Source: Acinetobacter sp. SFB (GTDB lineage Bacteria; Pseudomonadota; Gammaproteobacteria; Pseudomonadales; Moraxellaceae). From it: a DNA stretch of 64,000 nucleotides. Position 1 is the first letter of the stretch. The number at the start of each line of letters is the position of its first letter. The translations under genes and the position numbers were made by a program. The stretch lies in the NCBI RefSeq assembly GCF_001647545.1, contig NZ_LSZH01000011.1, positions 197,240 through 261,239 on the forward strand, written 5' to 3'. This document shows positions 1 through 2,979 of the stretch, piece after piece. The notes under the pieces are model-generated. The model had not been told where the DNA came from. It made no database searches and worked only from the letters and a program-made list of their open reading frames with translations.

Positions 1-218
<218 letters not shown>

Positions 219-396
219 ATACAACACCCAAACAGTTGTATGGTTCGATTGAATCGATACAAAAACCTTGATTTAGTTAAAGAAACGCTAGACAATACTC
301 AACTCAAACAGCCCAATCTGTCAAGATTTGGAAAAAGCCCAGGCATACACTGAAAAAGTGCAGCTAAGACCCAGGCAAGTATCCATAAACAGTTGT

Positions 397-511
397 GCTG
401 GCGACAATAGCAAGAGTGAACCACCTGATCCCTTCCCGAACTCAGAAGTGAAACCTCTTTGCGCTGATGGTAGTGTGGGGTTACCCATGTGAGAGTAAGT
501 CATCGCCAGCT
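397..511 (+). rRNA. 5S ribosomal RNA
   Basis: About 115 bases with the 5S hallmarks: complementary ends (GCTGGCGACAAT at the start, CATCGCCAGC at the end), the CCACCTGATCCCTTCCCGAAC region and the CGCTGATGGTAGTGTGGGG region. It sits about 180 bases after the 23S end and just before a strong terminator, so it is the last gene of the rRNA operon. An apparent reading frame on the opposite strand here is a by-product of the RNA gene. Confidence 0.95.
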
Positions 512-522
512 CATTATTCCTG

Positions 523-553
523 AAACCCCCTCAAGAAATTGAGGGGGTTTTTT
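523..553 (+). terminator. Rho-independent terminator of the rRNA operon
   Basis: A hairpin with arms AAACCCCCTCAA and TTGAGGGGGTTT, a 5-base loop and a run of T. It lies 11 bases after the 5S gene and separates the rRNA operon from the convergent Roadblock/GTPase cluster. Confidence 0.93.
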
Positions 554-609: not shown

Positions 610-1035
610 TCAAGAGTAAATAGCATCTGCTTTCACAATTTCAGCAGAACATTGTTTTATAGAAAATAGAAGTTGGCCTAAGAGTACATCTTTTGTTGTT
701 AAAGCCACAATTAGCAGAGGGTAGTTTTTGTTAGGTATAGAAGAGAGCAGGGCTTTACCATTTTCAGCATCAAGAGTGATAGATTGACAACCCCTCAAGT
801 TAATTTCACTTAAAAAAGCCTGAACCATTGCAAGAATGGAACTGCTCACAGCTGCTAATTTTCCGGCATTATCGACATTTTTTTTATGGACAGAAGTTAG
901 TTCAAAGCCATCAGTAGAACAAATCATCACGTATTCAACACCACTTACATTCGTTAAAAGGTTTTGAATGTGTTGTTGAGCAGTTTGAATTAATGTTTCT
1001 GGAGCAGATCGTTGTTGATGATTGGAATAAGACAT
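610..1035 (-). CDS. Roadblock/LC7-domain protein (distal gene of GTPase cluster)
   Basis: 141 aa. From about residue 18 to the end it has the alternating helix and strand pattern of the Roadblock/LC7 fold: an N-terminal helix, a 'GVEYVMICSTDGFEL' strand-turn-strand, a central helix rich in small residues (AGKLAAVSSSILAMVQAF) and a C-terminal 'LLIVALTTKDVLLGQLLF' strand and helix. Proteins of this fold bind small Ras-like GTPases, some as GTPase-activating partners (MglB on MglA). It is the last gene of a minus-strand cluster and starts 13 bases after the GTPase gene, which suggests translational linkage and a physical partnership. The partner role is inferred from fold and position. No signal peptide or membrane segment is seen. 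Confidence 0.8.
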   Translation of the reverse strand: MSYSNHQQRSAPETLIQTAQQHIQNLLTNVSGVEYVMICSTDGFELTSVHKKNVDNAGKLAAVSSSILAMVQAFLSEINLRGCQSITLDAENGKALLSSIPNKNYPLLIVALTTKDVLLGQLLFSIKQCSAEIVKADAIYS

Positions 1036-1048
1036 AAAAAATCTTCAG

Positions 1049-1585
1049 TTAGTGTGCTATTTGAATTTCAGCATTCGCAATTAGTGTTTCAACCAAAAGC
1101 AGAACGTCATTTTTGATACGGGCATCAATAAAAAAAACAGGATAGGTCTTCGATTGTAGTTCAGCCCATTCTCTGTAAATCAAGGTTGTATTTTTAGTTT
1201 TTTGATCAAGATGGGTGATTCCAATCACAATATTGTCATTCATTTCTTTGAAAGTGCTGAAATATTCATTAAGTTGTTGAATAGGATGTTCCGCACTGTG
1301 ATCGATTAAAATAATGGTTCCTAGTGCACCTTTACAGATTGCCGACCAAATAAAGTCAAATCGCTCCTGTCCTGGTGTGCCATATAAGCCTACTTTAATA
1401 TCTTCTTCTAGCGTAATTTCACCATAATCGATTCCGACAGTCGTTAATACTTTTTGATGGGAGGTAGTATCGGTATTTACTGCCTCTGTACTGAGTACAG
1501 ATATATCAGAAATGGTGTTAATTGCTGCACTTTTGCCTGCACCCATGCTTCCTGCAAAAACAATTTTGTAGTGTTGTAAGATCAT
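1049..1585 (-). CDS. Ras-like small GTPase (CvnD/MglA-like, COG2229-type)
   Basis: 178 aa, a single G domain. The P-loop is G12-SMGAGK-S19. The switch I threonines lie in 'TTVGIDYGEI' (48-57). The G3 region reads 'LYGTPGQERF' (67-76), and 'KGALGTIILID' follows. This pattern fits the GTPases of actinobacterial conservons and distantly MglA. Two departures from textbook GTPases are visible. The G3 Asp of DxxG is replaced by Gly69, and the G4 motif is THLD (124-127) rather than NKxD. It overlaps the upstream 322-aa gene by one base (stop/start) and is followed by a Roadblock gene. It probably acts as a cytoplasmic nucleotide switch with the Roadblock proteins. The pathway it controls cannot be read from the sequence. 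Confidence 0.85.
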   Translation of the reverse strand: MILQHYKIVFAGSMGAGKSAAINTISDISVLSTEAVNTDTTSHQKVLTTVGIDYGEITLEEDIKVGLYGTPGQERFDFIWSAICKGALGTIILIDHSAEHPIQQLNEYFSTFKEMNDNIVIGITHLDQKTKNTTLIYREWAELQSKTYPVFFIDARIKNDVLLLVETLIANAEIQIAH

Positions 1586-2553
1586 TAGAGGCCCAATTTT
1601 TTACGTAATTTATTAAAAAAACTTCGCATACCTGAAGTGTTTTCTGATCCGTATTGATGAATGGATTTATTTGCGTGATTTTTTACAGCAGATGCTGGAA
1701 TTTCTTCTATCATGTCTGCCATAAAACAGGTAAAAATAAAGCGATGGATAAAATTGCCGCTGATATTCATTTGCTGTTGTATGTACTGTACGGTATTGCC
1801 TTGTTGCAAATAGGCTGCAATTGTCAGCAAATCTTTACGCTCAGCAGAAGCAACGGGTTGTGGCCAATGTTTTAAATGATAACAACCTTCATAAATTGGT
1901 GTTTCATAACTTAAATTTTCCCAAATGAGTTGCCATATACCTTGTTTAAGGTCTTGCTTTAAATATGTATAACGAAAAGCGACAATACTATCTAGGTCAG
2001 CATGGACGAAATGTAAGCTAGCATTTATTTTTTTTAAATTTTCATCGGTCCATATTTCTTGGCTTTGAGTATCAATCAGGGCAATCTTGTTTTTATCATT
2101 CATTAGAATGAATTTATGGACTGCATTCTCTTTTTTTAATAAAGAAAAGATATCCTGAAAATAGCTGTAATTAAGTTTTTCTGTATGCTTTTCTAGTTTC
2201 TGTTCGACAATATTTTTTTGAATATCTAAGTATGGAATGATATCGCATAATAACCATCGTTTTAATGCATCTGAATCGGTTAATGGTAAATGTAAAGTAT
2301 TGTCTATAATTTCCCCTGAATATTCAGCATTATTGATAGTTTTTAAAATAAATAGATTTTTATGTTTTATATTTTTAATATTAGGAAGATCAAAAAAATG
2401 ATGATTAAGAATTAAAATCTGTAAATGAGGATCTGCAATATTCGTCCAATTTAGCTGATAATCATAAGATAAAAGATCTTCAAGCATAATTTTAAGTTTA
2501 TTAATTGTGCTTAAATTTAAACCAAATATCGAAATATTAATTTTATTTTTCAC
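1585..2553 (-). CDS. Unknown protein of the Roadblock/GTPase cluster
   Basis: 322 aa, not recognised. It is very rich in Ile, Asn, Lys and Leu in its first two thirds, with no signal peptide and no clear membrane segment. The N-terminal stretch (about 5-110) has short hydrophobic strands alternating with helices, reminiscent of a receiver-like alpha/beta domain. The C-terminal stretch (about 240-290, 'LLTIAAYLQQGNTVQYIQQQ' onwards) looks like a small helical or winged-helix element, and the extreme C-terminus is basic (FFNKLRKKLGL). It lies between the first Roadblock gene and the GTPase gene, and its stop overlaps the GTPase start by one base. It is therefore almost certainly made with them and may be an adaptor or output protein. 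That role is inference from position only. Confidence 0.7.
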   Translation of the reverse strand: MKNKINISIFGLNLSTINKLKIMLEDLLSYDYQLNWTNIADPHLQILILNHHFFDLPNIKNIKHKNLFILKTINNAEYSGEIIDNTLHLPLTDSDALKRWLLCDIIPYLDIQKNIVEQKLEKHTEKLNYSYFQDIFSLLKKENAVHKFILMNDKNKIALIDTQSQEIWTDENLKKINASLHFVHADLDSIVAFRYTYLKQDLKQGIWQLIWENLSYETPIYEGCYHLKHWPQPVASAERKDLLTIAAYLQQGNTVQYIQQQMNISGNFIHRFIFTCFMADMIEEIPASAVKNHANKSIHQYGSENTSGMRSFFNKLRKKLGL

Positions 2554-2619
2554 AATATGTCCACATGATACAGTAGTTTATAGAGACTACTTTGGAAAAT
2601 AGTCTCTAAATAAAATATA

Positions 2620-2979
2620 TTAAGAAAAATCTAATTCTTTTTCAAAACCTTTAAGCTCATGACGTGCCATTGCAAGATTTGATTTAGGACGATCTAATAC
2701 GAGATATAAAAACAAGCTGTCATTTGATACTAATGGTCGAATCAAGTGATATTGTTTACCTAAAGTAATTAAAATATCTTCAATATTATCTTGAAGATTA
2801 AGTGAACGAGCCACTTTACGTTTAGCGCGAATAACTTCAGTATTTCCTGCAGCTGCTAATTCTAAGTCAATGCTTGAAACACCTTGGGTTGCTAGAGCAA
2901 GACCACTTTCACTATCTACAAGTGCAGCAGCAATAAAACCATCAATCTCTGCCAGACTTTCTAATGATACTTTAGCCAT
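2620..2979 (-). CDS. Roadblock/LC7-domain protein (first gene of GTPase cluster)
   Basis: 119 aa covering one Roadblock/LC7 domain: '[17 protein letters not shown]' (strand, turn, strand), a helix starting '[20 protein letters not shown]', and a C-terminal '[15 protein letters not shown]' strand pair followed by a helix. The segment that follows ([20 protein letters not shown]) is typical of family members. It is the first gene of the minus-strand cluster, 66 bases ahead of the 322-aa protein, and starts at an ATG preceded by AAGGGGAAAT. It differs clearly in sequence from the Roadblock protein at the far end of the cluster, so the two may form a heteromeric pair or serve different partners. 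No membrane signal is present. Confidence 0.82.

Follow-up and report, generated by a model that had tools for sequence, protein, structure and literature searches.

A Group 3 MglA-type GTPase cassette of Acinetobacter with two distinct Roadblock proteins, and a related form apparently coupled to a blue-light sensor

The window analysed here is a 64,000-nucleotide stretch of DNA from Acinetobacter sp. SFB (contig NZ_LSZH01000011.1, positions 197,240 to 261,239). Four same-strand open reading frames (ORFs) at 610-2979 of the window encode, in order, a Roadblock protein (RobA), a protein that we call X, a Ras-like GTPase and a second, different Roadblock protein (RobB). Cassettes of this kind, though scarcely studied, are already published as Group 3 MglA systems of beta- and gamma-proteobacteria, defined by Wuichet and Sogaard-Andersen in 2014 (PMC4316618), and the window adds a further member. 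With moderate confidence, we suggest that the cassette is a nucleotide switch of this type acting, most likely via type IV pili, on surface behaviour. The new points are an RNA hairpin between RobA and X and a form of the cassette with a BLUF protein in the place of X. Through the latter, a blue-light sensor seems to feed into the switch in some marine relatives. Split and plasmid-borne versions of the cassette, and its recurrent position beside ribosomal RNA (rRNA) operons, are further additions of this analysis.

The frames of the cassette, and the gaps of 66, -1 and 13 bases between them (RobA/X, X/GTPase and GTPase/RobB), are as the first-pass annotation of the sequence gave them. The GTPase matched Pfam Ras with 29.4 bits (cut-off 21.6), consistent with the earlier assignment to the conservon/MglA group. 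Its motifs are G1 GSMGAGKS, TTVGIDYG, G3 PGQ, G4 THxD, which lacks the lysine, and G5 DAR. Both THxD and DAR are present in the window's GTPase and in all 17 of the Acinetobacter GTPases compared (17/17; the degenerate GTPase of locus L027 was excluded). Group 3 GTPases likewise often have a G4 motif without lysine, together with a G5 motif DAR, according to the main text of PMC4316618. Group 1 MglA proteins of the Myxococcus/Thermus type have [NT]KxD at G4. In a 52-row GTPase tree, the 17 Acinetobacter rows fell together (fork support 93/91) and apart from CvnD, the 10 rows of which formed their own clade (support 100/99). The tree is without a published Group 3 sequence: the named Neisseria locus has interrupted GTPase and X frames. 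At that locus, X-type matches lie directly before the GTPase. The Neisseria gonorrhoeae record L306, in which X-type and GTPase frames are interrupted, is chromosome-sized (2.17 Mb) and is filed as a plasmid. Matches of the window's GTPase to Rab entries in the PDB were taken as the generic GTPase fold. A phage or defence system was rejected as an explanation; there was no PADLOC family and there were two weak PHROG matches.

RobB is a Roadblock protein by profile. It matched Pfam Robl_LC7 with 30.9 bits (cut-off 23), and profile comparison with 26 Roadblock rows, picked by script from a Pfam search, gave a probability of 98%. Its PDB matches were Roadblock entries (best E 3.5e-5). For RobA, the profiles were weak and the predicted fold decided the matter. 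RobA scored 18 bits against Robl_LC7, under the gathering cut-off of 23, and 6 of 23 relatives matched that family at E 0.1 or better. The match to a generic Roadblock profile was co-linear and weak (E 0.0003-0.03, depending on alignment and mode), and direct profile comparison of RobA with RobB found no similarity. A structural model of RobA, built from 23 rows including the window's, had a mean predicted local distance difference test (pLDDT) score of 92.6. Its elements run alpha-beta-beta-alpha-beta-beta-beta-alpha, as in Roadblock proteins. The best solved matches were a Streptomyces Roadblock protein (3kye; Z 17.2, root-mean-square deviation 2.0, 114 residues) and Myxococcus MglB (6hjm; Z 17.0). 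The structure prediction proposed with the first-pass annotation therefore returns a Roadblock fold at Z about 17, and its claim of two different Roadblock proteins holds. RobA is the most conserved part of the cassette, with 77-84% identity between the window's copy and 13 others in Acinetobacter.

Protein X, which the first-pass annotation left without a family, was unmatched, at the limits used, in Pfam, NCBIfam, PHROGs and PADLOC. A model built from 23 Acinetobacter rows had a pLDDT of 82. In the second of two fold comparisons, residues 1-123 matched receiver domains with Z 7.7-9.2, values that straddle the usual noise level of 7-8. Nearly all of the 50 matches listed were receivers or receiver-containing proteins, the pilus-assembly proteins 4dad and 4dn6 among them. 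The receiver-like part spans residues 1-118 and is followed by a middle domain. At what we take to be the catalytic positions of receivers, assigned on X by strand order, the phospho-acceptor Asp is present in 1/23 proteins, the acidic pair in 0/23 and the Lys in 0/23. A helix-turn-helix (HTH) is probable at about residues 239-285, where the model has helices (239-278) and a strand (282-285). In the set of 23, Pfam HTH_40 was found in seven proteins (best E 0.00058) and HTH_23 in five. The HTH region has a mean net charge of +3.2 over the 23 proteins, and the presumed recognition helix one of +0.4 (range -2 to +3). The C-terminal tail helix is conserved; its sequence in the window is MRSFFNKLRKKLGL, and it is basic, with a net charge of +4 to +6 in 23/23. 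At a strict membrane-helix cut-off, 5/22 X-type tails passed versus 57/993 control ORFs, which is no more than suggestive of a membrane helix. Relatives of X are 23-31% identical to the window's protein, a fast divergence compared with RobA and the GTPase. A middle domain of the DUF4388/PATAN family was considered and rejected, there being no Pfam match in X. PF14332 was found in 1/143 genomes of the class, below cut-off, and seven GTPase-adjacent proteins of other classes that look PATAN-like by eye had no DUF4388 match. That the middle domain is of PATAN type is a guess.

These parts correspond to the composition given in the main text of PMC4316618, where a Group 3 system comprises MglA, an unknown protein (receiver-like N-terminus, variable linker and winged-helix C-terminus) and either one MglB or two. 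X is the neighbour protein with a receiver-like N-terminus, HTH matches in part of the X family stand where the winged helix would be, and RobB (by profile) and RobA (by fold) are the MglB homologues beside the GTPase. In the window, X and the GTPase lie between two Roadblocks that are distinct from each other. Acinetobacter, Moraxella, Psychrobacter and BLUF are absent from the main text of PMC4316618, and we found no mention there of hairpin, split or BLUF versions. The minimal nucleotide switch seen by the first-pass annotation is borne out in its composition; its kind was already in print.

To follow the parts across the genus, we ran each of the four alignments against one set of 109 Acinetobacter genomes. 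The GTPase was found in 69, X in 68, RobB in 68 and RobA in 70. All 68 X-bearing genomes have the GTPase, and 67 have RobB and RobA, so that the genes travel together in 67/68. The sole exception, genome G022 (locus L027), is without both Roadblocks and its GTPase switch motifs are degenerate. Among the 41 genomes without X, one has a 45-codon GTPase remnant, one a 34-codon RobB remnant and three an orphan RobA. Gene order was counted in the best 80 of 242 loci, 78 of them titled Acinetobacter and two Moraxellaceae. RobA-X-GTPase-RobB, the order for which the first-pass annotation had proposed a search, occurs in 42/80 (one with X in two pieces) and GTPase-RobB-X-RobA in 12/80 (one with a shortened RobB). 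X-GTPase only was found in 20/80, and 6/80 were incomplete, some being cut by contig ends. Since the parts co-occur across the genus and the order recurs in 42/80 loci, the four-gene set is beyond chance. In 11/109 genomes, judged by eye from coordinates, RobB and RobA form a standalone pair with X-GTPase elsewhere.

Where present in Acinetobacter, the cassette has one to three copies per genome. Across the whole family, X is present in 83/249 genomes and 9/16 genera, several of which have X-GTPase-RobB without RobA in the stretches read. In the class, 12/274 genomes have RobA, counting the window's own; with a wider alignment it was found in 50/398 of the phylum, many of these matches being weak. 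A second cassette in the window's own genome (L013:517-2919; G000:C12) has the order GTPase-RobB-X-RobA and an interrupted RobB frame. The same order is found in a cassette that runs across the record start of the A. wuhouensis plasmid p1_010062 (L295, 48258-50135 and 1-507). This plasmid is typed as conjugative; X matched 1/72,556 plasmid records.

The RobA-X gap contains the hairpin. A stem of at least 10 bp was found in 30/36 distinct RobA-X gaps, versus 1.5 expected from dinucleotide shuffles; the count is restricted to gaps of 25-120 bases, with duplicates and other lengths excluded. Stems of that length were found in 0/17 X-RobA gaps and 0/14 RobB-X gaps. Over all 62 distinct gaps there was a weaker excess of stems of at least 7 bp (59 versus 38 with mononucleotide shuffles). 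The stem sequences vary between species. We infer that the hairpin is an attenuator or message stabiliser that gives RobA its own amount.

The order RobA-BLUF protein-GTPase-Roadblock was found in four loci. Three (L194, L195 and L196) come from two genomes of one family, and the fourth (L293) is on plasmid pSU2 of Agarilytica rhodophyticola. The BLUF domain was assigned by Pfam in three loci (E 6e-20 to 8e-24) and by the record annotation in the fourth; the RobA of L293 is annotated as hypothetical and was identified by eye. The four BLUF-linked GTPases grouped in the GTPase tree as a single clade with a long branch, placed outside the fork that holds the Acinetobacter rows. Like X, the BLUF proteins have a W-P motif and a basic tail, here in the stretch after the BLUF domain. 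We searched with a model of the X C-terminus that was built without BLUF members. The four BLUF proteins matched at E 0.0002, 0.042, 0.057 and 0.11 among 2203 targets, and presumed-unrelated ORFs began at about E 1.8. One further ORF, L188:4085-4900, matched at E 0.26. Direct profile comparison of the BLUF and X C-termini gave a probability of 75% (E 2.5e-5) with the widest set; the Acinetobacter set alone (1.3%) and the one enlarged by other Moraxellaceae (3%) gave no match. The two modules are thus likely, from their sequences, to be homologous. It is possible, and we put this forward tentatively, that X is a cartridge slot. By this account, a proteobacterial core of GTPase, RobB and RobA would take exchangeable sensors that share a C-terminal docking module of W-P motif, HTH and tail; the sensor would be a protein-sensing pseudo-receiver in Acinetobacter and BLUF in Agarilytica and relatives.

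Coordinates of the cassette and of the adjoining rRNA features in the window.
Feature	Position	Strand	Basis or remark
RobA (119-aa Roadblock protein, first gene)	2620..2979	-	ORF, predicted fold
RNA hairpin, RobA-X gap	2581..2608	-	12-bp stem, G-U pairs counted
X (322 aa, GTG start)	1585..2553	-	ORF, predicted fold, alignment
Ras-like GTPase (178 aa)	1049..1585	-	Pfam Ras, motifs
RobB (141-aa Roadblock protein, last gene)	610..1035	-	Pfam Robl_LC7, profile comparison
5S rRNA gene, neighbour outside the switch	397..511	+	Rfam; convergent with cassette
23S rRNA 3' end	1-220		same rRNA operon as the 5S

The rRNA operon noticed earlier beside the cassette is confirmed, with Rfam support for the 5S. 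The cassette faces the 5S rRNA gene, with about 100 bases between them. A convergent 5S rRNA gene lies about 80-860 bases from RobB in 10/80 loci (L080, L081, L082, L088, L089, L103, L116, L126, L145 and L153), in addition to the window. Rfam supports the 5S in 9/10 of these; that of L082 is a fragment only, at a contig end. The 23S 3' end and 5S are doubled in tandem at L028:6715-7765 (G000:C11, partly window 1-525) with a period of 526 bases. The two copies are identical at 525/526 bases, the second beginning at window base 1, and represent either a true duplication or an assembly join. The next three long ORFs beyond the cassette encode radical SAM, DUF2726 and L-PSP proteins. As the first-pass annotation had it, no histidine kinase was recognised among the four cassette genes or these three ORFs.

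We propose the following mechanism. The GTPase would alternate between GTP and GDP forms. RobB would be the Roadblock regulator that belongs to this GTPase and, like MglB, most likely activates its GTP hydrolysis. X would be both adaptor and input: its pseudo-receiver would take up a protein signal, and its HTH and basic amphipathic tail would serve for docking, either on the membrane or on the complex of GTPase and Roadblock. In this way X would shift the GTPase to another nucleotide state, and RobB would reset it. RobA would be a second, non-equivalent Roadblock, probably an MglC-like scaffold that tunes the complex. Because the hairpin separates RobA from X, the level of RobA may differ from that of the other parts. 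The output would most likely be surface behaviour through type IV pili, whether polarity, retraction or adhesion. This output is suggested by analogy with MglA and with the mgl locus of Snodgrassella. That locus, assigned to group 3 by its authors, comprises a single mglA, a coupled pair of mglB genes and another mglB, an orphan, whose product has 121 aa; a point mutation in the orphan altered how colonies spread on soft agar and how the bacteria competed in the gut, as the text of PMC11112851 reports. Snodgrassella belongs to a different bacterial family.

Several points weigh against this proposal. The pilus effect in Snodgrassella is the authors' own deduction from colony shape on soft agar (PMC11112851), and the step from the orphan MglB to RobA is ours; we infer that they are counterparts from the length and from the orphan RobA copies. 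PilT was matched at E 8.6e-150 or better in 12/12 RobA-bearing genomes of the class sample (n=274). The association is not significant (about 0.14), since PilT is above cut-off in 232/274 anyway, and we rejected it as proof of a pilus role. No pilus or motility genes were recognised beside the loci whose flanking ORFs were read, a reading that was not systematic. Our literature search found neither an experiment on the system in Acinetobacter nor a described output there, in line with the first-pass annotation. With Foldseek alone, the X model had no hit at or below E 0.001 and its top rows were mixed; Pfam found no HTH in the window's own X.

The 2014 authors suggested a different output, control of transcription, from the receiver and winged-helix predictions (main text of PMC4316618). 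Here, X would be a DNA-binding protein like a response regulator, with its HTH on promoters, gated by the GTPase and Roadblocks. This is the main rival, and we judge it unlikely. The HTH_40 and HTH_23 matches and the positive charge of the HTH region argue for it. Against it speak, though weakly, the low charge of the presumed recognition helix, the conserved tail after the HTH, and the fast divergence of X, which RobA and the GTPase do not share.

Still less probable is a relay like that of the actinobacterial conservons (cvn, mfp), with a kinase encoded elsewhere and X as a receiver fused to a DUF742-like domain; the output could then be anything, as in actinobacteria. Conservons resemble the cassette in that they combine a related GTPase with a Roadblock and, ahead of the GTPase, a small DUF742 protein. 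The window's GTPase shares 31-35% identity with actinobacterial ones (among the matches listed, 60/128 records), and DUF742 lies directly before the GTPase in 11/11 actinobacterial plasmid loci opened, which is the place of X here. The first-pass annotation stressed that there is no DUF742 gene; the HTH of the X family does sit in that position, but the local profile match to DUF742 (44 columns, E 0.0003, probability 40%) is too weak to establish homology, and DUF742 was not adopted as the origin of the HTH. Conservons (Group 2) also differ in having a histidine kinase, one Roadblock and a separate GTPase clade, and X is without the acceptor Asp in 22/23 proteins and without the acidic pair and Lys in 23/23. 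Least probable, and in our view very unlikely indeed, is a mobile or selfish cassette without a housekeeping role, spread by plasmids and by repeats such as rRNA operons. The conjugative plasmid copy, the patchy presence (68/109) with up to three X per genome, the sites adjoining rRNA operons and the broken copies would all fit. However, the tree places the Acinetobacter GTPases together, RobA is strongly conserved, split-version genomes retain all four parts, a single plasmid record matches X, and the cassette has no toxin or recombinase.

Other known systems share parts of the architecture. The Myxococcus polarity module MglA-MglB-MglC-RomR consists of a small GTPase, a GTPase-activating-type Roadblock, a second Roadblock and a receiver-domain partner. 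The cassette likewise combines a small GTPase, two Roadblocks and a receiver-type partner. The Myxococcus protein is a Group 1 GTPase with a consensus G4, and its partners are not encoded near mglA, according to the main text of PMC4316618. Thermus and Deinococcus plasmid loci also have a protein directly upstream of the GTPase (DUF4388 in Thermus, unnamed in Deinococcus), then a Roadblock; no second Roadblock is among the annotated genes there. Globin-like proteins occur near GTPase/Roadblock genes on a Thermus plasmid (L291, annotated as protoglobin) and, as judged by eye, in L260 and L266 of another class.

Group 3 MglA was named in 2014, and the Snodgrassella mutant is the sole experimental study that we found since. 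The BLUF form is a version with a known input, and lets light on and off be used to probe GTPase loading. If the cartridge account is true, a Ras-like GTPase would in that form be directly subject to blue light; for such a link, our literature search returned an optogenetics review alone. In Acinetobacter, one to three copies occur per genome and split versions exist naturally. Should the output be pili, the cassette would add a Ras-like layer to the surface behaviour of a genus for whose motility and DNA uptake pili are important.

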